A stretch of DNA of 64,000 nucleotides from contig NZ_RQYT01000005.1 of assembly GCF_003932785.1 (NCBI RefSeq), positions 62,001 through 126,000 of the forward strand. Direction: 5' to 3'. This DNA comes from Arachnia propionica (GTDB taxonomy: Bacteria > Actinomycetota > Actinomycetes > Propionibacteriales > Propionibacteriaceae). This document shows positions 12,118-59,226 of the stretch, in pieces. Within the stretch, counting starts at the first letter, position 1. Each line of letters begins with the position of its first letter. The position numbers and the translations under genes were made by a program. The notes under the pieces are model-generated. The model saw nothing but the letters and a program-made list of their open reading frames with translations. It was not told the origin of the DNA and ran no database searches.

Positions 12118-12579
12118 ATGGGTTGGTTGACGGTCATGGTGGTCATCGCTGTGATCGTCGTCCTGCTGGCCCCGCTCATCCTGCTCTACGCCCGCCGCCG
12201 TTGGCTCTCCAGCCAAGGCGGTCTTTTCGATTGTGCCCACCGGATCAAGGAGGGGCAGGACGCCGAGGGCTGGGCCCTCGGGTTCGGACGGTACCGCGAT
12301 GACCGGCTCGACTGGTACCGGGCCTTCTCCTTGTCGTTGCGGCCCTCGCGGTCGTTCCAACGGGCCACGACGGTGTGGTTGCAGCGTCGTGCCCCCAGCG
12401 GCGTGGAGCAGGTGGCTCTCTTCGACGGCTCCTGGGTGGTGAGGCTGGGGGACCGGGTGACGGGGCATGAGCACAATCTCGCCATGGACCTGGAGAACGT
12501 CATGGCCCTCATGGCCTGGTTGGAGTCCGCCCCTCCCGGCAGCCATTACGTCCCGGGAAGCGGTGACTCACCCCTGTGA
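12118..12579 (+). CDS. DUF2550 family membrane-anchored protein
   Basis: The 153-residue product starts with one transmembrane helix (GWLTVMVVIAVIVVLLAPLI) followed by RRRW and a soluble domain containing QGGLFDCAHRIKEG and GWALGFGRY. These features and the position directly behind atpC match the actinobacterial DUF2550 family, whose function is unknown. The ATG at 12118 is chosen over the GTG at 12112 because of the promoter spacing. The last 12 bases overlap the end of the convergent adenosyltransferase gene. Confidence 0.82.
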   Translation: MGWLTVMVVIAVIVVLLAPLILLYARRRWLSSQGGLFDCAHRIKEGQDAEGWALGFGRYRDDRLDWYRAFSLSLRPSRSFQRATTVWLQRRAPSGVEQVALFDGSWVVRLGDRVTGHEHNLAMDLENVMALMAWLESAPPGSHYVPGSGDSPL

Positions 12580-13197
12580 CCGGGACCGTGTCGGCGCCTC
12601 GCGGTCCGTCCCGGGCACCCAGAGCACGTCTCCGTCGGGGCCGGCCCCCACACGGCACATGGTGAACAACAGGTCGCTGAGCCGATTGAGGTAGGTGACG
12701 GCGAGCAGGTTGATGCCACCACACCCCTTCTCGGTCGAGGCCTCGGTCCCGTGGTGCTCCACGGCACGCCAGGCGATGCGCTCGGCCCGACGACAGACCG
12801 TCCGCGCCACGTGGAGCCCCGCGACGGTGGGGGAGCCCCCGGGCAGGATGAACGAGCGAAGGTTCGGCAGGTCCTCGCCCAGTTCGTCACACCATGCCTC
12901 CAGCCGGTCGATCGAGGACTGCTCGATCCGCAGCGGGGGCCACTGCGGATCGGGATGCTGAGGGGTGCTGAGGTCGGCGCCGACGTCGAAGAGTTCGTTG
13001 CGGATGAGGTCGAGCATCTCGACGACCCGCGGCGGCAACCCCCCGTGGGACATGGCCAGCGCGATGCAGGCGTTGGTCTCGTCGACGGCGCCGTAGGCCT
13101 CGACCCTGAGGTCCGTCTTGGGGACCTCGGCGTTGTCGGACAGACGGGTGGTCCCCGCGTCACCAGTGCGGGTGTAGATCCGGGTCAGGTTCACCAT
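12568..13197 (-). CDS. PduO-type cob(I)alamin adenosyltransferase
   Basis: The enzyme transfers the adenosyl group of ATP to cob(I)alamin, making adenosylcobalamin. The product is 209 residues. The N-terminal ATP-binding motif RTGDAGTT, then DLRVEAYGAVDETNA and the helix motif CRRAERIAWR are the family signatures. A bacterium that uses methylmalonyl-CoA mutase, as the epimerase gene at 23.1 kb suggests here, needs this cofactor. The start ATG is preceded by TAAGCT six bases upstream (leaderless). Confidence 0.95.
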   Translation of the reverse strand: MVNLTRIYTRTGDAGTTRLSDNAEVPKTDLRVEAYGAVDETNACIALAMSHGGLPPRVVEMLDLIRNELFDVGADLSTPQHPDPQWPPLRIEQSSIDRLEAWCDELGEDLPNLRSFILPGGSPTVAGLHVARTVCRRAERIAWRAVEHHGTEASTEKGCGGINLLAVTYLNRLSDLLFTMCRVGAGPDGDVLWVPGTDREAPTRSRSQG

Positions 13198-13231: not shown

Positions 13232-13275
13232 GCCGGAAGAGGAGAGCCCAATCTCCATGTGTGTCATCCGAAGGG

Positions 13276-13318
13276 TTGACGTTGCGTGAAGTCTCGGGGT
13301 AGTGTCCGAGGCAGGAGG
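13276..13318 (+). promoter_or_regulatory. Promoter and ribosome-binding site of the accessory two-gene cassette
   Basis: TTGACG (13276-13281), an 18-base spacer and TAGTGT (13300-13305) are followed by a strong AGGAGG ribosome-binding site (13313-13318), 7 bases before the ATG at 13326. Unlike most single genes nearby, this transcript has a leader with a strong ribosome-binding site. Confidence 0.65.
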
Positions 13319-13325
13319 ATCAAGG

Positions 13326-14735
13326 ATGACCAAGCAACGCCGCTTTCAACACAATGAGCTTCGTACATGGGGATATCAGAGATTCACAGGGCAAGAGCGC
13401 CTCAGAATCGCCGCCAAAGCGGCGGAGGATTCCAGTGGGACGGGTCCATATCATCAGAGTGCTCAAGTCGCCAGGAAATGTCTGGCAGCACTGCCATTTC
13501 CTTCGGACTATTTTCCTCTCAGGATGCTATGTGGGCTGGAAGAATTGGTGGAGGAAGTTGTCACTCGGGCAGATGAAGGTTCGGAAGGAAGCGGCGGCGC
13601 AAGTGCGGACGTGCAGTCACGTCCCTCGCAGTCCAGGAAACCATTCCTGGTCCTCACTGCGCGAAAAATGGTCTGTCTCTACCAAGTGCTGGTGGAGGCC
13701 GGGGTGGATCTGTCTCAGTACTTCAACGTGCTGAGTGATCGATTCATCTTCCTCGAACCCAACCTGAAAACTCTGCATACTCTCTTCTCCAAGAAAAAAC
13801 CGGGGAAAGTGCCAAGCTCGACTAAGCTCTATCTTCTGGATGACTTGTCGCGGAGAGGGCAACAGCTCAACCGTCGCGCCGAGAACTTCCGTTGCCATCT
13901 TGGGTGGAACGATCTCGAATCCCATGAGAAGGAATTCAGTACAAGGGCCTTGGTGAACCTCCAGGAGAACTCGCTTGATGCTGAGCACTTCGTCAGAGTT
14001 GGAGGAGATGATGGTGTTGGTATGATCAGAGCATACTCGCGAGTCTTCGCTCGTGCGCTGATCCCTTATTTCACGGATTTTCCGATATCGCAATCCCTGC
14101 GACTCAACAGAGAGCAGTATGCGAAGCTGTGCGATTGGATGAGCCTTTGGGACGTCTTCGAAGTCACTAGCAGTGTTGCCATCGATGAGAGAGTCAGAAC
14201 GTATACGTTGGACGCTTGCCCTATACTCGATGAGTACCAAGGGTCAGAGGGAAAACTGCGGGCTGGCTCCTTCAGGGAGTGGTGTGACATCGTGAAACTT
14301 CGAGTTTTCGTTCAGTCGCCGATATCGCCAGATGGTGATTACAGGGTGAGGCTGATGGTCAAGCCCATGCTCAAGGGAATAAGAGCGAAACAGATTGCCA
14401 AGCTTAAGCAAATTTGGGTTGGGTCCAACGAGATGGAAGTTGGGCTATTGCCTGAGCAGTGCACCTACCATCAGATGGGACAACTGTTTGGCTATCTGGA
14501 GTACATGTACTCATGGAGTTTGCTGGGGCAGATATGGAGGGGCATCAGGAGAGATACGGGCATCAGCCCGCGCACTGATGAGATCGTTGACACAAAGTTT
14601 GCGTCACTCGTTCTTGGCAAGGGTCTATATGCGGTTAGACGAAAATCTTTGAAGTGCCTGAATAAATGGCTAGAAGAGGTTTACAGTAACGATGATAGTG
14701 AGGAAGGTGGCAAGAATGAAGAGAGCGGGCAATAA
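13326..14735 (+). CDS. Unrecognised 469-residue protein, first gene of an accessory RES cassette
   Basis: I do not recognise this protein. It is soluble, with no signal peptide or membrane helix and no clear nucleotide-binding or nuclease motif. Visible features: a basic start (MTKQRRFQHNELRTWGYQRF), a Ser/Gly/Ala-rich linker around residues 85-105, and a mostly helical body with [21 protein letters not shown] near the middle and KPMLKGIRAKQIAKLKQIW towards the C-terminus. It ends in the acidic tail SNDDSEEGGKNEESGQ. Start ATG 13326 has AGGAGG 7 bases upstream; an upstream in-frame ATG at 13302 lies inside the -10 element. Base composition is much more AT-rich than the flanking genes, with AGA, AGG and ATA codons that neighbours avoid, which indicates horizontal transfer. 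It overlaps the next gene by 20 bases, so the two products are probably made together and may act as one system. Confidence 0.8.
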   Translation: MTKQRRFQHNELRTWGYQRFTGQERLRIAAKAAEDSSGTGPYHQSAQVARKCLAALPFPSDYFPLRMLCGLEELVEEVVTRADEGSEGSGGASADVQSRPSQSRKPFLVLTARKMVCLYQVLVEAGVDLSQYFNVLSDRFIFLEPNLKTLHTLFSKKKPGKVPSSTKLYLLDDLSRRGQQLNRRAENFRCHLGWNDLESHEKEFSTRALVNLQENSLDAEHFVRVGGDDGVGMIRAYSRVFARALIPYFTDFPISQSLRLNREQYAKLCDWMSLWDVFEVTSSVAIDERVRTYTLDACPILDEYQGSEGKLRAGSFREWCDIVKLRVFVQSPISPDGDYRVRLMVKPMLKGIRAKQIAKLKQIWVGSNEMEVGLLPEQCTYHQMGQLFGYLEYMYSWSLLGQIWRGIRRDTGISPRTDEIVDTKFASLVLGKGLYAVRRKSLKCLNKWLEEVYSNDDSEEGGKNEESGQ

Positions 14736-17700
14736 TGCCGAGGGTCTTCGGCCTGATGAAATATTCTGCCTGGGAGATGATGTCGTCGGTATTGTGGATA
14801 AACAGATTCGTGACACAACACGAGAAAGGCGCAACGATGTCTCGCTAGGCGTAATCAATCATGCGGATGGGGGCGAGGTTGAGAATCGAGATTGGCGAAG
14901 GCTCAGTTTGTCGGAAATCAACAAGAAGTTCAAAATTAGTCTTGATGAGCCTAGAGGGACAGGAAATAAAATAAATCTTCCAGAACGTGCTGATCCGCTC
15001 TTTGTCGTATCCGCGGCGTTGGATGTTCTCACTGACTGGGGAAAACTCGTTCCCGATCAGCAGGCAGTTCGCAAAGGAGAAGGGGATTCTGGCGGCCAGC
15101 CTCCGGTGTACAGGCTCGATACTTACTCAACAACTTTGGAGGATGGATCGTCAGAAGAAATCTTGATCGAGAGGTGTTTCCGTGCCGGAGAAATAACTGC
15201 CGAGATCCAGAATAGAACCCTCACGGGCGGTAGGATCAGTGTTGTTGCGGAATCGTTCACGTTGGCAGGGGTGTCGAGAAAGGGCCATAGTGCCCATGCC
15301 TATCCGTTCCGAGACTGCTGGGCAGAGAAAAAGAATTCTGTCCCAGAGGATTCAGATCCTGAGGTTGAGGGTGATTATTCTCTGAAGAATGGAACTTGTG
15401 ATAATCAGGCCCAGGGGAAGCAACATCAGGTGCGGGGCGAGTCTCGGGTGCGAGATTATTTCGCTCCTGATTTCTCCAATGATGACGATGGCGATCGTGT
15501 CACTTGGATACCGTCCCCGACGGGCGGCAAGCAGGTTTCTCATCCGAGTGTGACGCTACGCTGCCTGCTTCGAGTTCTTGCCGCTGTCCCGGCCTGTATA
15601 TGTCGCGCGAATTCCGGGCATCGCGATCCCGATGATGTGAAGAAGCTCAAGCGCTACATTGAAGACGCTAGGTTGAGTTATTCAAGCTTGCCCTGTCCCG
15701 CGGTGACGTCAAAGAAATCAGCGACTGAGGTTGAATACGCGGGAGAATTGCTAAACTATTTCAATTCCGGATCACGCAATGAAGATGAGCAGGACTTCAG
15801 TGTCTCATCGGACGTGACCAAAGGCGCCAGCGGAGATGGGGTTGACAAGTCGATGCGGCCAGGTAAGACCACGGCAAGTGACGATCTGAAGGCTTGGCGT
15901 GTTTCTGGAAGAAGCGTCAGCGAATTCAATGGAGAATGGTCATTTCGAGAGTTCCGGCGACTGAAAAGAGCTTACTTGGCCTTGGATACGCTCCTCGCAG
16001 TGCTCCATCCTCTGTTGGAAGATGGTGAATCCAGCCCGTCCTCAAGTCCAGGGGCTCAGAAGAAGCTTCCGGAGGATCTTGGCTCCTTGAGACTTATCCG
16101 TAGGCACGATGTTTTTGATGTTTACGATGAATCTGAATTGCGAAAAGAGTTCTCGAATGATGTCTGGGATGACTGGCAAAGCCGCTTGGCTGGCCCTCCA
16201 GTGCCCCGTCGATTTGCATCTCGAGATCGGCTCGAGACCAATTGCTCGCAGGAGGGGCTTGCCGTCTCTTTCTTGGATCTACTGAATGACGTGTGGCACG
16301 CCTTGACTCATGCTTCGTTAGTTTTTTTGTCCGAGTTGGAGACTCCCGCTCCATTTATTTCCCATCGGCTCGCGATTGGGGACGTGGCGCAAGAAGTTGT
16401 CAGGAAAGTTCTGGATTCGTTGCCCAAGAGACTGAGAAAGGTGTCTGGTGTCGAGAAAGGTCTGAGGAGTTCCGGGTCTTCAAAGTTCATTTTGACTTAC
16501 AGTCCATTCGGCGCCCAAGACTCCCTTTACACCGCTGAACAGGTTGTTGGGCAATGCTGGGAGTTTCGCTCGGGAGGGGCATGGGCGCGCTTGACCGAGT
16601 CGGAACTGAATCACCTTGTCAACACGGGTCGTGTCGTTGAAGTTCTCGATTGGCAAGGGGTCAAGAGATATCCAAGTTTTCAGTTCGCTCCGGTTTGTCT
16701 TCGAGAGGGATTATTCGTCCGGCGAGAAGGTGGGTTGGAGGCTTCTGGGAAGTTTGGAGTTCGCTTCACGGACGAGGAATATCCCTTTTTGCGTCGTGAT
16801 GTCAGCGAGGCGATGATCGGTTCTTCTCGCGCGATGACGGGATGGGTGGCGGCGCTTTGGTTCAGTTCACTTCTGCGCCGAGTCGGGGAAACCAGTGATC
16901 GGGAGGGCGAAATCTTTTCGCCCAACTTAGGGTATCGCGGCCTGCTCTTCCGTGAGGCTCTTTCGCAAAAGGGTCTGTGGGTTGACGCTTGGCTGGCTGA
17001 TGCGCGGGCTCTTCTTCACAGTGATGATGCCATGCCCGAGTATCTGCAGTCGAACTGTGCGCGTTTGAAGCCCGGTGCTCTGAGGAAATTGTATCGGCTT
17101 TCCTCTTTTGGTTACCTTCACCCCAACATGTGGGCGAATGCTGCTGTCTTCGAAGCCTCTCTTGGGAAGTTGCAGGGATATCGAGAGCGGACTTTGGCGG
17201 AAAGAGACTTCTTGGATGAGCCTTGGTATCCGCCTGGCCGCTTCGATCCGGGTGCGCACTCGAGGAATGTCAATGGGGGAGAATATTTTGGCGCCATGTA
17301 TCTGGCTGAAAGCATCTCGGGCTGCGTCTTTGAAGTATTCGATCGACTTCCGAGCATAACATTGGATGATGTTGTGTCTAAGCGAATTTATCGCTACGAC
17401 GTCCAACTTCCTGATGAGTTTGAGTTCGTTGATTTGCGTAGATGGCCGGCCTTGGTTTCTGCCACTCCGATACGCTCCATAACTCAGGCGATTGCCAACA
17501 CGCTGTGCTATGGTCATTCTCTCTCGAGGAAGAAAACGTCTGATGGGTATTCAGGTCTCATCGACAAGCTGCCCCGAGTGATCCGGTATCAGCTCCGCAC
17601 TGCGCTCGACAAGTGTGGTTGGGTTCTTTTCGAGCCAACCTTCTTTAAGGGTGGGCGCTTGAAGACGATTGATCATGTCGTGAAACTATTGGATTGTGGA

Positions 17701-18021
17701 ACGACCCCTTCCGACAAGAAAGCCGGGGCGGATACTTGGAAGAATCGAGAGATGCTTCGTTGTGACACGGCCAACCATGATGTGGGCTGGCAGCCTTCAT
17801 CTCAGCGTAAGGACTCGATGGTGGAGCCATGGTGCAGTCCAGATCTCTCAGCCGTCTTGAGCTGGTCGGAACCTGGTAAGGGGGTGAGGAAGTTCTGGCG
17901 AGCCATCTGGAGGCTTCGTGTCGATCCACGTGATTCGGTGGTGTGTCTCCGCCGCTTCCCGCGTGAAGGGCGCCTGGGAGAATGGGCCGGGTCGTCGGAG
18001 GCGGTAGGGCCAGTGTTCTGA
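14716..18021 (+). CDS. Large (1101-residue) protein with C-terminal RES-like domain and internal antitoxin-like segment
   Basis: The second gene of the cassette. Residues about 835-990 resemble the RES domain, known from toxins that destroy NAD+: GRFDPG (R842), a linker, AMYLAES (Y862), VFEVF (E873), then a hydrophobic end GWVLFEPTFFKGGRL. The conserved Arg, Tyr and Glu positions are all present. Residues about 604-770 resemble RES-partner antitoxins: a helix-turn-helix-like stretch ending GVKRYPSFQF, then GWVAALWF and KGLWVDAWLADARALL. The first about 600 residues are unrecognised and contain low-complexity acidic linkers. ATG 14716 has GAGGAAGG 8 bases upstream; ATG 14692 is possible but less well placed. 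GC content is low until about 17900, then rises to the host level, so the last about 25 residues may be encoded by host DNA. Function is inferred only from the RES resemblance. Confidence 0.75.
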   Translation: MKRAGNNAEGLRPDEIFCLGDDVVGIVDKQIRDTTRERRNDVSLGVINHADGGEVENRDWRRLSLSEINKKFKISLDEPRGTGNKINLPERADPLFVVSAALDVLTDWGKLVPDQQAVRKGEGDSGGQPPVYRLDTYSTTLEDGSSEEILIERCFRAGEITAEIQNRTLTGGRISVVAESFTLAGVSRKGHSAHAYPFRDCWAEKKNSVPEDSDPEVEGDYSLKNGTCDNQAQGKQHQVRGESRVRDYFAPDFSNDDDGDRVTWIPSPTGGKQVSHPSVTLRCLLRVLAAVPACICRANSGHRDPDDVKKLKRYIEDARLSYSSLPCPAVTSKKSATEVEYAGELLNYFNSGSRNEDEQDFSVSSDVTKGASGDGVDKSMRPGKTTASDDLKAWRVSGRSVSEFNGEWSFREFRRLKRAYLALDTLLAVLHPLLEDGESSPSSSPGAQKKLPEDLGSLRLIRRHDVFDVYDESELRKEFSNDVWDDWQSRLAGPPVPRRFASRDRLETNCSQEGLAVSFLDLLNDVWHALTHASLVFLSELETPAPFISHRLAIGDVAQEVVRKVLDSLPKRLRKVSGVEKGLRSSGSSKFILTYSPFGAQDSLYTAEQVVGQCWEFRSGGAWARLTESELNHLVNTGRVVEVLDWQGVKRYPSFQFAPVCLREGLFVRREGGLEASGKFGVRFTDEEYPFLRRDVSEAMIGSSRAMTGWVAALWFSSLLRRVGETSDREGEIFSPNLGYRGLLFREALSQKGLWVDAWLADARALLHSDDAMPEYLQSNCARLKPGALRKLYRLSSFGYLHPNMWANAAVFEASLGKLQGYRERTLAERDFLDEPWYPPGRFDPGAHSRNVNGGEYFGAMYLAESISGCVFEVFDRLPSITLDDVVSKRIYRYDVQLPDEFEFVDLRRWPALVSATPIRSITQAIANTLCYGHSLSRKKTSDGYSGLIDKLPRVIRYQLRTALDKCGWVLFEPTFFKGGRLKTIDHVVKLLDCGTTPSDKKAGADTWKNREMLRCDTANHDVGWQPSSQRKDSMVEPWCSPDLSAVLSWSEPGKGVRKFWRAIWRLRVDPRDSVVCLRRFPREGRLGEWAGSSEAVGPVF

Positions 18022-18030
18022 GTGTCTTCG

Positions 18031-18065: not shown

Positions 18066-18764
18066 ATGGGTTTCTGTCGCGTTGTCTGTGCTGTGGGTCT
18101 GACGATCGGGTTGGTGGCCTGTTCGAACGCCAACGACTCCGCCAAGAAGGAGAACGACACCGGCACCGCCACCCGGGCCTCGATGTGCTCCTACCCGCCC
18201 GCGGGGGAGCCTGCGAAGCCGGTGGATCCGCCGTCGGAGACCGACGTCGTCAACAGCGGTGAGACCAGGGTGACTCTCCACATGGCGGCCGGGGAGGTCG
18301 AGATCACGATGGATCGGGCAGCCGCCCCCTGCACGGTGAACTCTTTCGTGTCCCTCGCCCAGCAGGGCTGGTTCGATGGCACGAGCTGCCACCGTCTGGT
18401 CGATCACGGGATCTTCGTCCTGCAGTGTGGCGATCCGTCGGCGACCGGCACGGGCGGGCCGGGATACACCATCCCTGATGAGCTCTCCCCGAGGACCACT
18501 GACCTGGAGAAACTGAGCGACGAGGTCGTCAACTACCCGTCGGGGACGGTCGCCATGGCCAACACCGGGTCCCCGGACACGGGGGGCTCCCAGTTCTTCA
18601 TCGTCTGGGACGACACGCCGCTGCCACCGAGCTACGCCGTGTTCGGGACGATCGACGACGCCGGGCTCGAGGTCGTGCGAGGAATCGCCGCCCAGGGCGT
18701 CGACGCTGCGGACCGGACCACCCCCATCGCGGACGCGTCGATCACCTCGGTCACGATGGATTGA
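18066..18764 (+). CDS. Cyclophilin-type peptidyl-prolyl isomerase lipoprotein
   Basis: A predicted lipoprotein on the outer face of the membrane that would speed folding of exported proteins by proline isomerisation. The 232-residue product has a signal peptide ending in the lipobox LVAC (lipidated C19-20 region), an Asn/Asp/Lys/Thr-rich linker, then a cyclophilin domain with TVNSFVSLAQQGWFDGTSCHRLVDHG, LQCGDPSATGTGGPGY and GSQFFIVWDD. Some active-site positions differ from classical cyclophilin (CHRL for FHRV). Start ATG 18066 is set by promoter spacing; a longer reading from 17982 would lose the signal peptide. Confidence 0.92.
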   Translation: MGFCRVVCAVGLTIGLVACSNANDSAKKENDTGTATRASMCSYPPAGEPAKPVDPPSETDVVNSGETRVTLHMAAGEVEITMDRAAAPCTVNSFVSLAQQGWFDGTSCHRLVDHGIFVLQCGDPSATGTGGPGYTIPDELSPRTTDLEKLSDEVVNYPSGTVAMANTGSPDTGGSQFFIVWDDTPLPPSYAVFGTIDDAGLEVVRGIAAQGVDAADRTTPIADASITSVTMD

Positions 18765-30553: not shown

Positions 30554-31201
30554 TCAGACGAACTGCTCGACCCGGGGGACCCCGGCGATGACCTCGCCGA
30601 GCCAGGCGCTGTAGAACTCGAGGAAGGTGAGACGCGGTCGTTGCGACGTCGAGGTCTGGGACTGCCTGGTGAGGGTCTTTGGGAAGATCCCGCTCCAGTT
30701 GGCCCGTCCGTCGAACCAGACGTTGCCGCGTTCGGGGCCGTTCAGCACGAGGATCAGCAGATCACCACAGCCCAGATCAAGCAGGGGCAGCGTCCCCCTG
30801 ACCCATGAGGTCGAGAAGTAGTGTTCCAACCGGTCGTCCAGATCCGGGGCCTGCTCCTCCACGGCGTCGTGGACCTCATCGTCGTCCCATGCGTCAGTGA
30901 AGGGGAACTCCGCGGTGAGGTCAATGACGTCGCGTCCCCCGTTAGAAGGGATCAACGGGTGTCGATCAGTGGGGAGAAACAGTTCCCGTCCCGGACTGAA
31001 CTCGGGCAACCCACATGTGGTGAGGAAGTCCCGGTACCCCGAGGGAAGCCTGACACCGTGCCCCCGCTCGAAGTGGCTGATCTCGTCGGCAGGGATCGGC
31101 GGCCGGGACAGGCGTGTCCGGTACACCGGGTCAGCGCACAGTCCCCGGTCGCGAATCGTGGCCAGCTGGTTCTGGACGTGGTTCAGCAGGTCCGAGGTCA
31201 T
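30554..31201 (-). CDS. SMI1/KNR4 family protein
   Basis: The 215-residue product shows the SMI1/KNR4 (SUKH) pattern: an N-terminal helix, then ERGHGVRLPSGYRDFLTTCG, and the strands GDLLILVLNGPERGNVWFDG, ending in FLEFYSAWLGEV. Proteins of this superfamily are often immunity proteins against secreted toxins, but no toxin gene is next to it. It overlaps the zur stop by 4 bases, so it is probably the last gene of the zinc operon transcript; whether it belongs there functionally is unknown. Confidence 0.85.
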   Translation of the reverse strand: MTSDLLNHVQNQLATIRDRGLCADPVYRTRLSRPPIPADEISHFERGHGVRLPSGYRDFLTTCGLPEFSPGRELFLPTDRHPLIPSNGGRDVIDLTAEFPFTDAWDDDEVHDAVEEQAPDLDDRLEHYFSTSWVRGTLPLLDLGCGDLLILVLNGPERGNVWFDGRANWSGIFPKTLTRQSQTSTSQRPRLTFLEFYSAWLGEVIAGVPRVEQFV

Positions 31202-50920: not shown

Positions 50921-50996
50921 TCCCTGGTAGCTCAATTGGCAGAGCATTCGACTGTTAATCGAAGGGTTACTGGTTCGAGTCCAGTCCGGGGAGCCA
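50921..50996 (+). tRNA. tRNA-Asn (GTT)
   Basis: The 76-base gene folds into a cloverleaf: acceptor stem TCCCTGG with CCGGGGA, D-arm, anticodon stem TTCGA/TCGAA with loop CTGTTAA (anticodon GTT at 50954-50956), T-arm with GGTTCGAGTCC. Discriminator G and an encoded CCA (50994-50996). Confidence 0.95.
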
Positions 50997-51146: not shown

Positions 51147-51273
51147 TCGTCAATAGTATTTTTGGATGACAGGTCGGGATGGGGGTCTGTCGACGTCCCA
51201 TGCCCGCCACAGCTGCCCGTGGTCGTTGGGGACGACATTCATGGGTGAAAGGGGAAGAAGGACTGTGGCCTCG

Positions 51274-54200
51274 ATGAACAAGAGGGCGTGCGGCAAGGTG
51301 CTCGCGGCGGGGATCGTCGCTGCCCTGTCCGCCACGCTGTTCCCGGTGACGGCGCACGCCGCGCCGCAGGTGGGGATGACGATGACCGTTTCCCAGGACG
51401 GTACACCCGACTGGGATGGTGACAGCGACCCGGGAAACGACTCCGCTCCGAGTAATGGGATCGTACGTGTCAATGACACCGTCACCTACCGGATGCAGTA
51501 CAACGTCAACGACACCGCCGGGGGAGGGGTGGCGGTCGACAACGTGACGATCAAGCTGAAACTTCCCAAGGGCTTGTTCATCGAAGCACTTCCTGGGGTG
51601 TGTTCCGGGCGTGGCTCACAGTTGACCCCGACCTCGATGCCGAGCCCATCCCTGCCGCTCACCGCGAATTCCGTCAATGAACTTCCTGAGCAGGAACTCG
51701 TCTGCAATGTTGGGTCCAAGACCAACGCCTCGGACTCCCTCTCCCTCAGCGCCAAGGTGAGCAACCTGGTGCACAACGGCCAGCAACTCGCCCCGATCTC
51801 CGCAGAGATCACCGCAGACGGGGCCACGCCGGTCCAAGCTCCTGACCTGCCGAAGGTCACTGCATCCTCGCGTCTCAAGTGGGACATCTCCAAGAACAGT
51901 GTCGCCTTGGTGGAAAACCTCGGCTACATCTACGGTCCCACCAACGACGCCTGTCCGTGGGCACCGACCAAGGTCTGCAAGCTGACGGCCTACACGGCCC
52001 TGCTCTCGGCACCTGCGGGTGGCAAGGGAGCGATGCCCGCCATCGGCGACATCACCTTCACCGATGACCTGTCGCCCCGCGCCATGTATCCGGGGCTTCA
52101 GGAGGAGCAGTACCAGAGGATGGAGGCCGACCTCGAGCGTTACGGTTCCCGGATCTACCCCTTCGACTCGTACTACTCGGCACCGGCCCCGAAGATCGGG
52201 GTCCGCGGTTCCACGGCGGTCAACGCCGTTCGTGACTCGGGCACCGTCGCGATCAACCAGGAGAGCCCTGGAAAGCCGGCGAAGTTCGTCGTGAAGAACG
52301 CCGACACCTCGCTCATCACCTACCCGTCCCAGGTGGTTCTGCCTGCCAAGCAGGCCATCCCGGGCACCAACGCCTACGCGTTCGTCACCTCCTTCACCGT
52401 CTACACCCCGATCGAGACCATCAGGGACTTCGGGACCCAGTCCGGAACCACGTGGACCCTTGCGACACGCAACGCTTACACCGAGCTCGACATCAAGGGT
52501 TTCGAACCTGCCCGCGATGTCCAGACCATCGCGGATCAGCCGGCCTTCAACGACTACCGAGCCACCACGCCGAACATCTCCATCGGCAATGGCTTCTCCA
52601 AGTTCTTCACCGGGGTGCCGGGAGAGCCCATGAACACCCCAGCAGCTGAGTTCTCCAAGGGGGATTCCGCACTCGGCAGCGGGCTTCCGGGCAACACGAC
52701 ACTCCGCTCCGGCACCTCCACCGTCGCCCCTGATCAGAAGGTGCAGTCCCAGATGCTCATCGTCGCGTCGAACCCCGCACTGCCGGGGAAGGTCAGCGCC
52801 GTGATGTGTGATTCCTGGGACAACACTCGACTCCACCTCGAGGCCAGGGACGTGCCCCGGTCCACGGACCCGGGTACCGGACTGCAACAGGTGCCCTCGA
52901 ACGGCGCTCCCGTGTGGATCTCGGGATACAGCAATGTCCTTCGCGGAAACGTCACGACCTATGCACGTGAGGCCTCCGAGGTGCCTGCGTACAAGGTCCA
53001 GTACTCCGCCACCCCGGGTGGGCCGAGCGCGGCATCCGAGTGCGGCGAGGCCGCGGGCCCGTGGTACGACACGCCCGAGGAGGTCCCGGGCAACGACGAG
53101 GCGAAGAAGGCCCAGAAGATCTACACCGGTGTCGGCAGGGTCCGGGTTCACCTGGTCATTCCGGAGCCGGTGAGCAATGACTCACTTCTCGGCAGCGGAA
53201 TCCGTCTGATCGTCGCCACCAGCCTGCGAGTGGCGGTCAATGACCTCCCGTCCGGGGACATCCTGCCGAACTACGCCTCGGTCAAGCGGGTGAACTTCGA
53301 GGAACTGTCCATGGAACAGGTGCTCAATCACGCTGATCGATGGGGCCGCAGCTTCTACGACAAGGAGACCCATCGGGGACAGTACGGCGACCGTGTCATC
53401 AAGTCGTTGTCCCAGGTGCGTGTGACCAAGCAGGTGCGTCGCGGCACCTCGGGAGAGTTCAGCAAGACCCCGCCCCAGGTGACCGGTAGCAGCACCGAGA
53501 ACGAGGCGAACATCGTGCAGTGGCGGCTGAAGCCGTCACTGACCTCTCCGGCTGCTGCTCCCGGCCTCACCCAGGAGGTCTGGGTGGAGGACTGCCTGCC
53601 CGCAGGATTCCACTTCGCGGATGCTTCCTTGCCGCCCGCCCTCGTCGTCGAGGGGTCGACCCCGGGTGACTCCAAGCTCTCCGGGGGCAAGCAGTGCGGT
53701 CCAGGAGCCACCTACCTCCGCTGGGTGTTGCCGGCACAGGCCGTCAACGCCGACATCCCCGAGATCATCGTGACCTCTGAGGTGTCCCCCGCCGTCAAGG
53801 ACGGGGTGTACCAGAACACCGTGCAGGTGTGGGCCGACGGGGACAACTCCTTGGCGACCCTGCGTCAGGATTCGGCTGAGGCGAAGGTCACCAACATCGC
53901 TGGCATCAAGCTGGAGAAACTGGCCCTCACCCCTGTGGTGCAGGCCAATCGTTCCGGTCAGACCACCGACGAGGTGAACCGGTGGCGGATGCGCATGACC
54001 AACACGCTTCCCAGCCCGGATGACCGGGCCATCTCCGACCCAGTGTTCATCGATGTCCTGCCTCGCCATGGGCTGGGACAGAGCTCCTTCAACGGCACCT
54101 TCTCGTTCGTCGGGGCCACGGTCACGAAGTACACCATGGGGGCCCAGGGCGAGGGCGACCCCGGGCAGGTGAAGATCCACTACACCGCATCCCCCGATGT

Positions 54201-57200
54201 GGCCATGGACCCGAACGACCCCTCCAACGGGGCCGATGGTGGCACCACGTGGTGTGACGCTCCGGCTGGCGGACAGGTGGTCAGCGGGACCGGGACCTGT
54301 CCGGCGGTGGCCTCGGAGGTGACCGGGTTGCGTGTGACCAAGCCGGGTGCGTTCCCCGCCGACCATGTCATCGAGGTGGAACTGTCCATGAAGGGCGTCG
54401 ACAACGCGGAGGGCGATGTCTATTCCAACGTCACCTTCGGTCGCGCCACCGGCCTGGCCCTCCCGGTCGGACCGATCACCCGCAATGAACGGGTCATCGG
54501 TTCCACCGTCGGCGACCACGCCTGGTTCGACATGAACGAGGATGGCCTGCAGGATGCCGGGGAGCCGGCAGCCTCTGGACTCCGGGTGACCCTCACCGGC
54601 AAGGATGACCTCGGAAACGACGTCAACCTCTCCACCACCACGGGTGATGACGGCCGTTATGAGTTCGCCAACCTCCGTGCGGCAGGTCCCGATGGCTATG
54701 TCGTGACCTTCGAGAAGCCCGATGGGGCGACCTTCACCACCAAGCAGGCCGGGTCCGACACCACCGTCGACTCCAATGTGAACCCCGATGGGGTTGCCGA
54801 TGCGATCAGACTGGGGGTGAATCAGGATGATCCGAGCGTTGACGCGGGCTACGTTCTCAAGGGCGGATTGCAGGTGAAGAAGATCGTCTCGGGTGTCGGG
54901 GTCGAGGCCTTCGCCCCCCAGGATGAGTACACCTTCAACGTCACCTGCAGCGTGGGTGGCAATCAGGTCGTCAACCGAGACGTCACGGTTGCCTACCAGG
55001 CTGGTCAGACCGAGTTCACCAGTGAGGAGATCGGGGACCTCCCGGTCGGTGCCGAGTGTGTGGTGACCGAGACCGCTGCGGGTGACGCGGACCCGACCGG
55101 GACCGCGCCCACCAGGAACGTGACGATGACCTGGAACAAGGACACGAAGACGGCTTCCGCCCTCGCCGATGTCACGAACTACTACTCGGCCGGGCAGCTG
55201 TCGGTGACGAAGGTCCTCGACGGCGACGCCGCTGCGGTCGCGGAGGCAGGCGCAAAGCAGTTCACCGTCCACGTCACCTGTGTCAAGGGTGACGAAGCGG
55301 CCACCGCCGCCGTGGTCGCCGAGGGTGATGTCGTCATCACCGGTGCCGGGACCGAGGTGCTGAAGGACCCGCAGGGTCTTCCGGTCAAGCTCCCGCTCGG
55401 GGCCCGGTGCTTCGGCGTCGAGACCGGTACCGGTGGCGCGGTGACCTCCGTCGTGGACCACACGGATTTCAACTCCGCCGTCCAGGTGACGGGTGGTACC
55501 CCGGATGCCCCGGTCGAGATCGGACTCACCGCGACCAACACCTTCAAGGACCCCAGGGTCTCGATCACGAAGGCCGTCAAGGATGCCGTCCAGCAGGATG
55601 GTGACCAGGCCCGGATCAGCTACGACATCGTGGTGAGCAACGACGGTGAGGTGCCCACCACCTACACCCTCGATGACACCTTCGCCTTCGGCGAGGGGAT
55701 CGAGGTCCAGCAGGTGGCCCCTGTCGTCGCGGCCCCCGGCACGATCACCCCGTCGGCCGAGTTCAACGGCCGTGACAAGGCCAACCTCGTCACGGATCAG
55801 GCGATCGGTGTCGGCGATCGGCACACCTACACGGTGACGGTGCTCACCCGGGTGCCCGCAACGATGACGGAGACGGCCACGGACTGCACCCTCGACCAGG
55901 GGGAGAACGGTACGGGTCTGCGCAACAACGCCGCGCTCACCCATCGGGGGACGCAGCAGAATGCCGAGGCATGTGCGGCCGTGCAGTTGCCCAGGCTCGA
56001 ACTGACCAAGACCCATCGGGACTTCGTCCAGAACGGCGAGAAGGTGGAGATCGTCTACGACGTGAAGGTCACCAACCCCGGTGCCGTCAACACCACGTAC
56101 TCCCTGACCGACACCCTGAAGTTCGGTGACGGGATCACGGTGGAAACCGCCAGGGTCGAGGCCGTCGATCCGGTCCGGATCGTGCCACTCGGCACCGATT
56201 TCGCCGGCGCCACTTCCCTCAAGCTCACCGAGGATCAGGCGATCAAGGCCGGCGAGAGCCACACCTTCACCATTCGGGTGACGGGAACCGTCGCCGAGAC
56301 GATCACGGCTCAGGCGAAGGACTGCCAGGTCGATGGCGGTGAGAACGGCTCCGGGCTGCTCAACGAGGCCGATGTCACCTGGCCGGGCGGGCCGCTCAAC
56401 GCCAACGCCTGCGAGCAGGTCAAGGTTCCCGGCAAGCCGAGGGTCGCCAAGGAGGTCAAGGAGTTCGAGCAGCAGGGGGCCGACGCCACCATCACCTATG
56501 AGGTGAAGGTGACCAACCCCAGCGAGATCGACGCCACCTACAGCCTCAACGACGAGTTGAAGTTCGGTGAGGGTGTGGCCATCGCTGAGGTGGCCGCCGT
56601 CACCGCCACGCCGGACACACTCGTCCCCGCCGCCGACTTCAACGGCGTCGACAGGACGAACCTGGTGACCAACCAGACCATCGAGGCAGGCGCAAGCCAC
56701 GTCTTCACGGTCAAGGTGAAGGCCAGCGTGGCCGCAGCCATCGTGGCTGAGGCCCAGGACTGTGAACTCGGAGCGGCCGAGGCCGGGACGGGTCTGCTCA
56801 ACCGGGCGACCATGACCACCGGCGGTGAGGCCACCGAGGTCACCGCCTGCGAGGCCGTCCGGAGGCCGGGCAAGCCGCTCGTGACGAAGGCGGTGAAGGA
56901 GTTCGTCCAGCAGGGTGAGGAGGCCGACATCAGCTACGAGGTGAAGGTGACCAACCCCAGCGAGTTCGACAGCACCTACACGCTGGTCGACGAGCTGAAG
57001 TTCGGCGAGGGCGTGACCGTGGTGCCCGGCTCGGTGACGGTTGCCGTCGATCCCGCAGCGGTGGTTGCCGATGCCGCCTTTGACGGCGTGGCGAGCACCA
57101 CGCTGGTCACCGACCAGCCGCTGGCCGCCGGTGCCACCCACACCTACACCGTCAAGGCAAGGGCTACCGTGGCGACCACCATCACCGCGGAGGCCAAGAA

Positions 57201-59226
57201 CTGCGAGCTCCAGGGCGCCGAGGCGGGGACGGGTCTGCTCAACCAGGCCACCATGACCACCGGCGGCGAGGCCACCGAGGTCACCGCCTGCGAGCCGCTC
57301 CGGACTCCCGGCGACATCACGATGACCAAGCGCGCCGTGGCCTTCGAGCAGGACAGCCAGGACGCCTCCATCACCTATGAGGTGAAGGTGGTCAACCCGA
57401 GCGAGTTCGACGCGACCTACACCCTGGTCGACGAGCTGAGGTTCGGCGAGGGCGTGAGTGTGGTTCCCGGCTCGGTGACGGTTGCCGTCGAACCGGCTGC
57501 CGTGACGCCGAAGGCGGACTTCGACGGCGTGACGAACACCACCGTGGTGGCAGACCAGGCCATCGCCGCCGGTGCGACGCACACCTACACCGTCAAGGTC
57601 AAGGCCAAGGTGGCGCTGACCGCCACCGAGGAGGCCCGGGAGTGTGAGCTCCAGGGCGGCGAGACCGGCACTGGTCTGCTCAACCAGGCGACGATGACCA
57701 GCGGCGGCAAGACGGTCGAGGCCCGCGCCTGCGAGCCCGTCGGGTTGCCCGTCGTGGAGATGGCGAAGACCCATCGCGACTTCGTCCAGGACAACGACAA
57801 GGTCGCCATCACCTACGACGTGAAGGTCACCAACTCGGGAACCGTTGCGACGACCTACTCGCTCGACGACACCTTGCGGATCGGTGAGGGGATCACCGTG
57901 GACACCGTCGAGGTGGCGGCAGTGGATCCCGCCGAGGTGAAGCCGGCTGCTGACTTCGATGGCCGGGGCAAGCTCCGCCTCGTCACCGATCAGCGGATCG
58001 AGGCCGGGGCCACCCACACCTTCACCGTCAAGGTCACGGGCAAGGTCGCGGAGACCATCACGGCCGAGGCCAAGGACTGTGAGCTGGGTGCCGGTGAGAC
58101 CGGTACGGGTCTGCTCAACGAGGCCGATCTCACATGGGCTGGTGGCAACCTCAACGACACGGCCTGCGAGCCGGTCAAGGTGCCAGGCAGGCCGCAGGTC
58201 AACAAGGTGGTCACTGATTTCGACCAGCAGGGGCAGGAGGCTGCCATCACCTACGAGGTGAAGGTGACCAACCCCAGCGAGTTCGACGCCTCCTACACCT
58301 TGACCGATGCGCTGAGCTTCGGCGAGGGCGTGAGCGTGGTGCCGGGTTCCGTGGCCGTGACGGCCGAGCCGGCCGAGGTGACTCCTGCTGCCGAGTTCGA
58401 CGGTGTGGTCCACACCACCCTGGTGACCGACCAGGCCATCCCGGCGGGTGCGGTGCACACCTACACGATCAAGGCCCGGGCCGAGGTCGGGGTGAACGCC
58501 TCAGAGGCCGCCCGGGACTGTGAGGTCCAGGCCGGTGAGAACGGAACCGGGCTGCTCAACCGAGTCGAGATGGTGGTCGACGGTGAGTCGCAGACCGCGG
58601 AGGCCTGCCGCCCCGTGGCGGTGCCCGAGTTGGCGCTCACCAAGACCCAGCGGGACTTCGTCCAGGACGGTGCCGCCGTGGCGATCACCTACGACGTGAA
58701 GGTCACGAACACCGGTGGTGTTGTCACCAGCTACTCGCTCGACGACACCCTGAACTACGGCGAGGGGATCTCGGTTCGCAGCGTTGAGGTCTCGGCTGTC
58801 GACCCGGCCGACCTCGAGGTCGCCGCCGATTTCGACGGTCAGTCCAAGCTCAGCCTCGTGAGGGATCAGCAGATTTCCTCGGGTGCCACCCACACCTTCA
58901 CCATCACCGTGAAGGGCCGGGTCGGCGAGGAGGTCACCGCAGCCGCGGCGGAGTGCGAACTCCAGCCGGGTGAGAAGGGCACGGGCCTGCTCAACGTGGC
59001 CGACCTCAGCTGGATCGGTGGGGAACTCACCGACCGAGCCTGTGAGCCGGTGACTCCACTCCCGCCGAGGCCTGAGCCGTCGCCGGAACCGTCCCCCACG
59101 CCCACCCCGGTGCCGTCGCCTGAGCCGGTCCCGACTCCGGCGCCCTCTCCGGAGCCGACCCCGGTGAAGCCGGTGAAGCCGGAGCCGCCGAAGGTGCGCC
59201 CGGGTCTGCCGAGGACCGGTAGCTGA
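51274..59226 (+). CDS. Giant secreted repeat protein (DUF11-like repeats) with terminal LPRTG motif
   Basis: This 2650-residue protein is probably a cell-surface adhesin or matrix protein. From the N-terminus: Sec signal peptide (residues 1-29, cleavage after TAHA), about 1050 residues of beta-rich sequence in which conserved-domain repeats were not recognised, an SdrD B-type domain (about 1080-1195: GDHAWFDMNEDGLQDAGE), two DUF5979-like domains (about 1198-1424), eight DUF11-like repeats of about 146 residues (1425-2592), a Pro-rich stalk (PEPSPEPSPTPTP and related), and the C-terminus PGLPRTGS immediately before the stop. LPxTG normally is followed by a hydrophobic helix and a basic tail that sortase needs; both are missing here in every frame, because a terminator follows at once. 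Start: ATG 51274 is chosen for signal peptide length; GTG 51265 (with AGAAGGA upstream), ATG 51241 and ATG 51166 are alternatives. Confidence 0.85.
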   Translation: MNKRACGKVLAAGIVAALSATLFPVTAHAAPQVGMTMTVSQDGTPDWDGDSDPGNDSAPSNGIVRVNDTVTYRMQYNVNDTAGGGVAVDNVTIKLKLPKGLFIEALPGVCSGRGSQLTPTSMPSPSLPLTANSVNELPEQELVCNVGSKTNASDSLSLSAKVSNLVHNGQQLAPISAEITADGATPVQAPDLPKVTASSRLKWDISKNSVALVENLGYIYGPTNDACPWAPTKVCKLTAYTALLSAPAGGKGAMPAIGDITFTDDLSPRAMYPGLQEEQYQRMEADLERYGSRIYPFDSYYSAPAPKIGVRGSTAVNAVRDSGTVAINQESPGKPAKFVVKNADTSLITYPSQVVLPAKQAIPGTNAYAFVTSFTVYTPIETIRDFGTQSGTTWTLATRNAYTELDIKGFEPARDVQTIADQPAFNDYRATTPNISIGNGFSKFFTGVPGEPMNTPAAEFSKGDSALGSGLPGNTTLRSGTSTVAPDQKVQSQMLIVASNPALPGKVSAVMCDSWDNTRLHLEARDVPRSTDPGTGLQQVPSNGAPVWISGYSNVLRGNVTTYAREASEVPAYKVQYSATPGGPSAASECGEAAGPWYDTPEEVPGNDEAKKAQKIYTGVGRVRVHLVIPEPVSNDSLLGSGIRLIVATSLRVAVNDLPSGDILPNYASVKRVNFEELSMEQVLNHADRWGRSFYDKETHRGQYGDRVIKSLSQVRVTKQVRRGTSGEFSKTPPQVTGSSTENEANIVQWRLKPSLTSPAAAPGLTQEVWVEDCLPAGFHFADASLPPALVVEGSTPGDSKLSGGKQCGPGATYLRWVLPAQAVNADIPEIIVTSEVSPAVKDGVYQNTVQVWADGDNSLATLRQDSAEAKVTNIAGIKLEKLALTPVVQANRSGQTTDEVNRWRMRMTNTLPSPDDRAISDPVFIDVLPRHGLGQSSFNGTFSFVGATVTKYTMGAQGEGDPGQVKIHYTASPDVAMDPNDPSNGADGGTTWCDAPAGGQVVSGTGTCPAVASEVTGLRVTKPGAFPADHVIEVELSMKGVDNAEGDVYSNVTFGRATGLALPVGPITRNERVIGSTVGDHAWFDMNEDGLQDAGEPAASGLRVTLTGKDDLGNDVNLSTTTGDDGRYEFANLRAAGPDGYVVTFEKPDGATFTTKQAGSDTTVDSNVNPDGVADAIRLGVNQDDPSVDAGYVLKGGLQVKKIVSGVGVEAFAPQDEYTFNVTCSVGGNQVVNRDVTVAYQAGQTEFTSEEIGDLPVGAECVVTETAAGDADPTGTAPTRNVTMTWNKDTKTASALADVTNYYSAGQLSVTKVLDGDAAAVAEAGAKQFTVHVTCVKGDEAATAAVVAEGDVVITGAGTEVLKDPQGLPVKLPLGARCFGVETGTGGAVTSVVDHTDFNSAVQVTGGTPDAPVEIGLTATNTFKDPRVSITKAVKDAVQQDGDQARISYDIVVSNDGEVPTTYTLDDTFAFGEGIEVQQVAPVVAAPGTITPSAEFNGRDKANLVTDQAIGVGDRHTYTVTVLTRVPATMTETATDCTLDQGENGTGLRNNAALTHRGTQQNAEACAAVQLPRLELTKTHRDFVQNGEKVEIVYDVKVTNPGAVNTTYSLTDTLKFGDGITVETARVEAVDPVRIVPLGTDFAGATSLKLTEDQAIKAGESHTFTIRVTGTVAETITAQAKDCQVDGGENGSGLLNEADVTWPGGPLNANACEQVKVPGKPRVAKEVKEFEQQGADATITYEVKVTNPSEIDATYSLNDELKFGEGVAIAEVAAVTATPDTLVPAADFNGVDRTNLVTNQTIEAGASHVFTVKVKASVAAAIVAEAQDCELGAAEAGTGLLNRATMTTGGEATEVTACEAVRRPGKPLVTKAVKEFVQQGEEADISYEVKVTNPSEFDSTYTLVDELKFGEGVTVVPGSVTVAVDPAAVVADAAFDGVASTTLVTDQPLAAGATHTYTVKARATVATTITAEAKNCELQGAEAGTGLLNQATMTTGGEATEVTACEPLRTPGDITMTKRAVAFEQDSQDASITYEVKVVNPSEFDATYTLVDELRFGEGVSVVPGSVTVAVEPAAVTPKADFDGVTNTTVVADQAIAAGATHTYTVKVKAKVALTATEEARECELQGGETGTGLLNQATMTSGGKTVEARACEPVGLPVVEMAKTHRDFVQDNDKVAITYDVKVTNSGTVATTYSLDDTLRIGEGITVDTVEVAAVDPAEVKPAADFDGRGKLRLVTDQRIEAGATHTFTVKVTGKVAETITAEAKDCELGAGETGTGLLNEADLTWAGGNLNDTACEPVKVPGRPQVNKVVTDFDQQGQEAAITYEVKVTNPSEFDASYTLTDALSFGEGVSVVPGSVAVTAEPAEVTPAAEFDGVVHTTLVTDQAIPAGAVHTYTIKARAEVGVNASEAARDCEVQAGENGTGLLNRVEMVVDGESQTAEACRPVAVPELALTKTQRDFVQDGAAVAITYDVKVTNTGGVVTSYSLDDTLNYGEGISVRSVEVSAVDPADLEVAADFDGQSKLSLVRDQQISSGATHTFTITVKGRVGEEVTAAAAECELQPGEKGTGLLNVADLSWIGGELTDRACEPVTPLPPRPEPSPEPSPTPTPVPSPEPVPTPAPSPEPTPVKPVKPEPPKVRPGLPRTGS
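55549..59052 (+). repeat. Eight tandem DUF11-like repeats of about 438 bp
   Basis: Repeats begin near 55549, 55990, 56437, 56872, 57307, 57748, 58186 and 58621. Type A (VKEFxQQG start, ITYEVKVTNPSEF) and type B (THRDFVQ start, YDVKVTN, TTYSL) follow in the order: first unit divergent, then B A A A B A B. Each has two cysteines, one in a DCxL/ECEL motif and one in the final AC(E/A) motif, about 38 residues apart, so each may be closed by a disulfide. DNA identity is highest between units 3, 4 and 5, suggesting recent duplication there. Confidence 0.85.

Follow-up and report, generated by a model that had tools for sequence, protein, structure and literature searches.

A 64,000-nucleotide stretch of Arachnia propionica DNA, referred to here as the window, carries a pair of overlapping genes, A and B, predicted to be a RES toxin-antitoxin rebuilt as a single protein chain and accompanied by a phosphoribosyltransferase (PRTase)-like partner. 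In our preferred reading, which we hold with a probability of about 0.6, the pair reached the genome by horizontal transfer and is a conflict module of two genes, probably one of the abortive-infection type, in which A would release the RES domain from a fused brake and NAD+ would be lost. Sequence comparison shows the domain make-up, the invariant catalytic residues, the recurrent pairing of A with B, and the horizontal insertion. Coordinates below refer to the window and to its + strand unless stated otherwise.

The initial annotation had described two overlapping genes of 469 and 1,101 residues, and both open reading frames are present on the + strand. Gene A occupies 13326 to 14735 and gene B 14716 to 18021; the last 20 nt of A are shared with B, which lies in the +1 frame relative to it. 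The strong ribosome-binding site (RBS) ascribed to gene A was likewise found, as AGGAGG at 13313 to 13318, 7 nt ahead of the ATG at 13326; the likely RBS of gene B is GGAAGG at 14702 to 14707. The promoter described in the same place fared less well. Its elements, TTGACG (13276 to 13281) and TAGTGT (13300 to 13305) separated by N18, can be read directly from the sequence, but the −10 hexamer fits the consensus in 3 of 6 bases and the combination is absent from the list given by a consensus promoter scan, so the promoter call for gene A is weak.

Both the low GC content of the pair and its position between conserved housekeeping genes, as originally reported, held up. The GC content is 0.517 for gene A and 0.533 for gene B versus 0.67 on both sides, and the GC3 values are 0.58 and 0.55, respectively, versus a mean of 0.84 (standard deviation, 0.07) for the window's other genes. 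To the left lies a cob(I)alamin adenosyltransferase-like housekeeping gene (12568 to 13197, − strand), present in each of the 31 genomes searched from the same genus, and to the right a peptidyl-prolyl isomerase-like lipoprotein gene (18066 to 18764); both are outside the system. These two genes are direct neighbors in 28 of the 29 same-genus sister loci examined, and the gap is also empty in the closest of them, whose left gene is 86% identical; therefore, about 4.8 kb has been inserted in the window. Composition and position together mark the pair as a low-GC foreign insert acquired by horizontal transfer. A search for transposon-like ends revealed no direct or inverted repeats of at least 9 bp common to the insert borders, and no tRNA is present at the insertion site. 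The sole sister locus without the isomerase beside the adenosyltransferase (L065, G577) has a different lipoprotein-like gene there. Elsewhere in the window, a very large open reading frame (51166 to 59226; 2,686 amino acids), whose product looks secreted, starts shortly after a tRNA-Asn (50921 to 50996), and the start of a 215-amino-acid protein (30554 to 31201) resembles by eye the SMI1/KNR4 immunity-type family.

The tail of gene B belongs by sequence to the RES domain family, the profile-profile comparison given below being decisive. This domain covers about residues 786 to 974 of the 1,101 (17071 to 17637) and contains R794, R842, Y862, and E873, as delineated by Pfam PF08808, hhalign, and a combined alignment. 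Window gene B matched the Pfam model over residues 839 to 931 with an E value of 0.0025 and 18.3 to 21.6 bits, under the cut-off of 23.2 bits, which three B homologues exceeded (35.4, 29.7, and 26.2 bits). As a comparison set, we used ten further RES genes from the same order, eight of which have small antitoxin genes directly upstream. In hhalign, the tail of the B family matched these ten toxins with Prob 97.9 and E 4.2e-13 (controls, Prob ≤ 0.2), and the window B sequence alone matched them with E 7.5e-5 (controls, Prob ≤ 2.3). Moreover, R794, R842, Y862, and E873 are invariant in all aligned homologues, at an overall identity of 22 to 40%. Since R842, Y862, and E873 are invariant and are located where the Pfam RES model aligns, the pattern is not due to chance. 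These results uphold the original assignment of a RES domain from these three residues and its placement as the tail of a very large protein. An AlphaFold2 model of B residues 581 to 1101, built from a 4-row alignment, had a pLDDT of 32, too low for use in fold comparison. The late Ser and Asn of NatT, its pocket residues S184 and N193 (PMC11535050), are not conserved in the B family in the combined alignment. In the same alignment, they are missing too in several ordinary RES toxins encoded beside antitoxins, and these residues are therefore no strict definer of the RES family.

Directly ahead of the RES domain, at about residues 602 to 761 (16519 to 16998), is an antitoxin-like segment composed of a helix-turn-helix (HTH) region and a 'VKRYPSFQF...GW' stretch, homologous to actinobacterial RES antitoxins. 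The pre-RES segment of the B family matched the HTH/FPxxQF antitoxins of the RES-partner family with Prob 96.7 and E 4e-10 in hhalign, and the window segment alone did so with E 1.4e-4 (controls, Prob ≤ 2.3), while crossed and reversed controls of the family toxin and antitoxin profiles stayed at Prob ≤ 0.6. The homologue P0013 additionally showed a weak HTH_17 match. The antitoxin-toxin order in B is the same as that of the ordinary operon, where antitoxin genes are directly upstream of RES genes. Given this homology and position, B is by sequence an in-cis fusion, with RES antitoxin and RES toxin in one chain; the initial annotation had named no antitoxin, only an unrecognised partner, which the fused segment corrects. 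In NatR-NatT, the last helix of the antitoxin reaches into the toxin active site and plugs it (PMC11535050), and by analogy an antitoxin directly ahead of RES in one chain suggests a built-in brake. No publication on a RES toxin with a fused antitoxin was found in the open-licence literature.

Like the RES-Xre/MbcA modules (MbcTA, NatRT, ParST, and RES-Xre), B combines a toxin bearing R, R, Y, and E with an HTH and FPxxQF-type antitoxin immediately ahead of it. Unlike in those modules, both parts reside in one protein of 570 to 1,100 amino acids that has a long front part, and a PRTase-like partner always comes in addition. Because toxin and antitoxin form one 1,101-amino-acid chain and not separate small genes, B would work like a type II toxin-antitoxin system but is no member of that class. 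We regard it as very improbable that the RES part is no longer catalytic and that B is a DNA-binding regulator only: the HTH-type segment and the nonconserved pocket Ser and Asn would agree with such a role, but the four residues kept in all members despite the low overall identity, together with large additions untypical of regulators, argue against it.

Gene A is predicted to encode a divergent PRTase-like protein, a link made through its relatives. The motif for 5-phosphoribosyl-1-pyrophosphate (PRPP) in type I phosphoribosyltransferases is hhhhDDhhxxGxT. Across the A family, an 'ARRx' turn stands where the pyrophosphate loop would be and is followed by 'SDRF' and an 'hhhhDDxxxxGxT'-like motif. 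The corresponding part of window A, residues 108 to 195 (13647 to 13910), was defined by alignments and by an hhalign comparison of the family with the genome's own PRTases (E 6.6e-6); here 'VLTARKMVCLY' occupies the pyrophosphate-loop position, 'LSDRF' comes next, and a PRPP-motif-like stretch (13827 to 13865) follows. A further signature, 'PYFTDFP' at residues 247 to 253 (14064 to 14084), forms a nearly invariant block in the family. The PRPP-like motif of window A is degenerate (DDLSRRGQQ, with the final T changed to Q), whereas relatives possess the full motif (VALVDDTVILGST, VLIADDTCISGET); it is full or nearly full in P0011, P0008, L095, and L096. Of these, L095 and L096 are further A members with a full motif, from species with large genomes, in the same order but in a different family.

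L096 provided the connection to known PRTases. It matched adenine phosphoribosyltransferase in the PDB with E 1.1e-4, the nine listed matches up to E 10 all belonging to the PRTase superfamily, and PF00156 with E 3.5e-4. The window A lineage in turn matched the L095/L096 lineage with Prob 96.1 and E 3.6e-9 in hhalign, while that lineage alone gave no direct link to PRTases (Prob 2.2). The partner gene, previously called unrecognised, can be placed as PRTase-like through these two steps. Weak PDB matches of single window proteins were rejected as chance, and an AlphaFold2 model of A from a 4-row alignment had a pLDDT of 44, with the PRTase-like region below 50. As the PRPP motif is partly degenerate in window A, catalysis may be lost there and A may bind a ligand instead.

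Whole-genome searches across the order and the family yielded seven RES-type loci, window included. Tessaracoccus sp. OH4464_COT-324 carries two, one an A-B fusion of 1,509 amino acids and the other a convergent A/B pair; four further genomes from the family have one each, two of these being the Propionibacteriaceae metagenome-assembled genomes Gsp477_bin63 and Hm464_bin142. A B-type gene adjoins an A-type gene in all seven loci, although at L028 the end of B is missing and RES is not reached. This recurrence is in line with the two-gene cassette of the initial annotation. The gene A family was present in 8 of 198 genomes in the family search, and among 396 genomes sampled evenly across the phylum gene A was found in its own genome only; its homologues come from Propionibacteriaceae and one other family. 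Single-sequence searches gave no match in genome contigs, viral contigs, plasmids, or phages, and alignment searches of viral contigs gave none either. One match (G545; E 6.8e-4) contained an internal stop and was rejected as chance.

The border between the two genes differs among family members. The start of B (14701 to 15258; 'ALDVLTDWGKLVPDQQ') corresponds to the C-terminal domain that A has elsewhere in the family, matching profile positions 429 to 577 of A3 with E 1.4e-15, which indicates that the A/B gene boundary has moved. We take the split in the window as a probable gene fission, a +1 shift being a possible alternative. A programmed frameshift joining A and B was considered and set aside, gene B having its own RBS and no slippery site being seen by eye. 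Since A is fused to B in one relative, it is very likely that they function in a single complex.

Other neighbors are found beside more distant A-like genes. L095 (6254 to 10371) and L096 (4862 to 8894) encode A-like proteins of 1,158 and 1,125 amino acids with the full PRPP motif, each with a divergent PycTM gene next to it (52.7 and 51 bits versus a cut-off of 27.2). The tail of these proteins resembles a nucleotide cyclase by eye and is without a Pfam match; these loci could be systems resembling Pycsar in which a PRTase forms the front end. The likeness to Pycsar (PycC cyclase plus PycTM) ends with these relatives, as the window contains neither PycTM nor a cyclase and its effector is predicted to be RES. 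At L029 (4624 to 7597), a distant A-like gene overlaps a gene for an MBL-fold hydrolase (P0017) with weak similarity to the RTasMBL and LmuA models. At L030 (1820 to 7928), another is found with a 653-amino-acid protein and a KAP-family NTPase, possibly a further system. With A-like genes that occur beside PycTM, close to a KAP NTPase, or overlapping an MBL-fold gene, A looks like a conserved module whose effectors can be exchanged. Alternatively, A could be a true phosphoribosyltransferase whose activity produces or uses up a nucleotide signal, with B (HTH plus RES) as the receptor-effector that answers. The motifs retained in P0011, P0008, L095, and L096 speak for this, as does the PycTM neighbor of the last two, PycTM being an effector of cyclic-nucleotide signaling; even so, we consider it quite unlikely, given the degenerate motif of window A, in which no base-binding site was identified.

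We looked at the surroundings of the RES-type loci for known defence genes, an association that the initial annotation had suggested examining. One locus (L027/L032) lies 1.1 kb downstream of DISARM DrmB and DrmC (6e-74 and 2e-92). DISARM is a separate gene set absent from the window, and a DoxX-like gene, recognized by eye, intervenes at L027/L032. At five of the seven loci, window included, no defence gene is visible nearby, and the L028 contig is too short to judge. Most of the loci sit among housekeeping genes, as in the window. No PADLOC model matched A or B, and close homologues gave no matches or chance-level ones only. Solitary inserts of this kind speak for a selfish, toxin-antitoxin-like stabilization or stress module with no phage role, in which RES and antitoxin were fused for coexpression and A tunes the activity under starvation. 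According to a 2024 paper (PMC11535050), the roles known from RES toxins examined to date are in persistence, plasmid stability, or stress, and no RES toxin has been linked to immunity. Against this explanation, the A/B pair is on no plasmid among those searched, A-like relatives lie beside PycTM, and one RES-type locus is near DISARM; on balance we judge it unlikely, though deserving of some weight. A role of A/B in phage defence is plausible but indirect.

In the abortive-infection reading, the predicted RES domain of B would be expected to break NAD+ by phosphorolysis and would be held off at rest by the HTH/YPxFQF antitoxin-like segment directly ahead of it. A, or A together with the helical front of B, would sense infection or a nucleotide change, and A would then move the fused brake off the RES pocket. 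Free RES would lower NAD+, and growth would stop. We infer the NADase activity, the auto-inhibition, the triggering role of A, and phage as the signal from this architecture. There is a precedent for parts of it in type III-A retrons, in which a PRTase is found with winged-helix effectors (PMC12548924); as with A/B, a PRTase-like protein is paired with a DNA-binding-type protein, there in an immune context. Here, unlike in those retrons, RES takes the effector's place and PADLOC models miss A, and no reverse transcriptase or noncoding RNA was seen with the A/B pair (no Rfam match). A PRTase also appears by name in a figure that presents newly validated defence systems (PMC13092281). No published system of RES with a PRTase-like partner was found in the open-licence literature, subscription journals being outside the scope of the search.

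More broadly, and tentatively, PRTase-like A might serve a family of actinobacterial immune systems as their common front end, sensing or making a signal, while the effectors are exchanged: RES with its own antitoxin in the chain, PycTM together with a cyclase-like tail, an MBL-fold protein, or a partner that is a KAP NTPase. In that case, the locus would be the first RES NADase-based immune system. The pair offers a direct, testable route leading from RES to phage defence, and A points to a modular sensor family outside the defence-gene models searched.
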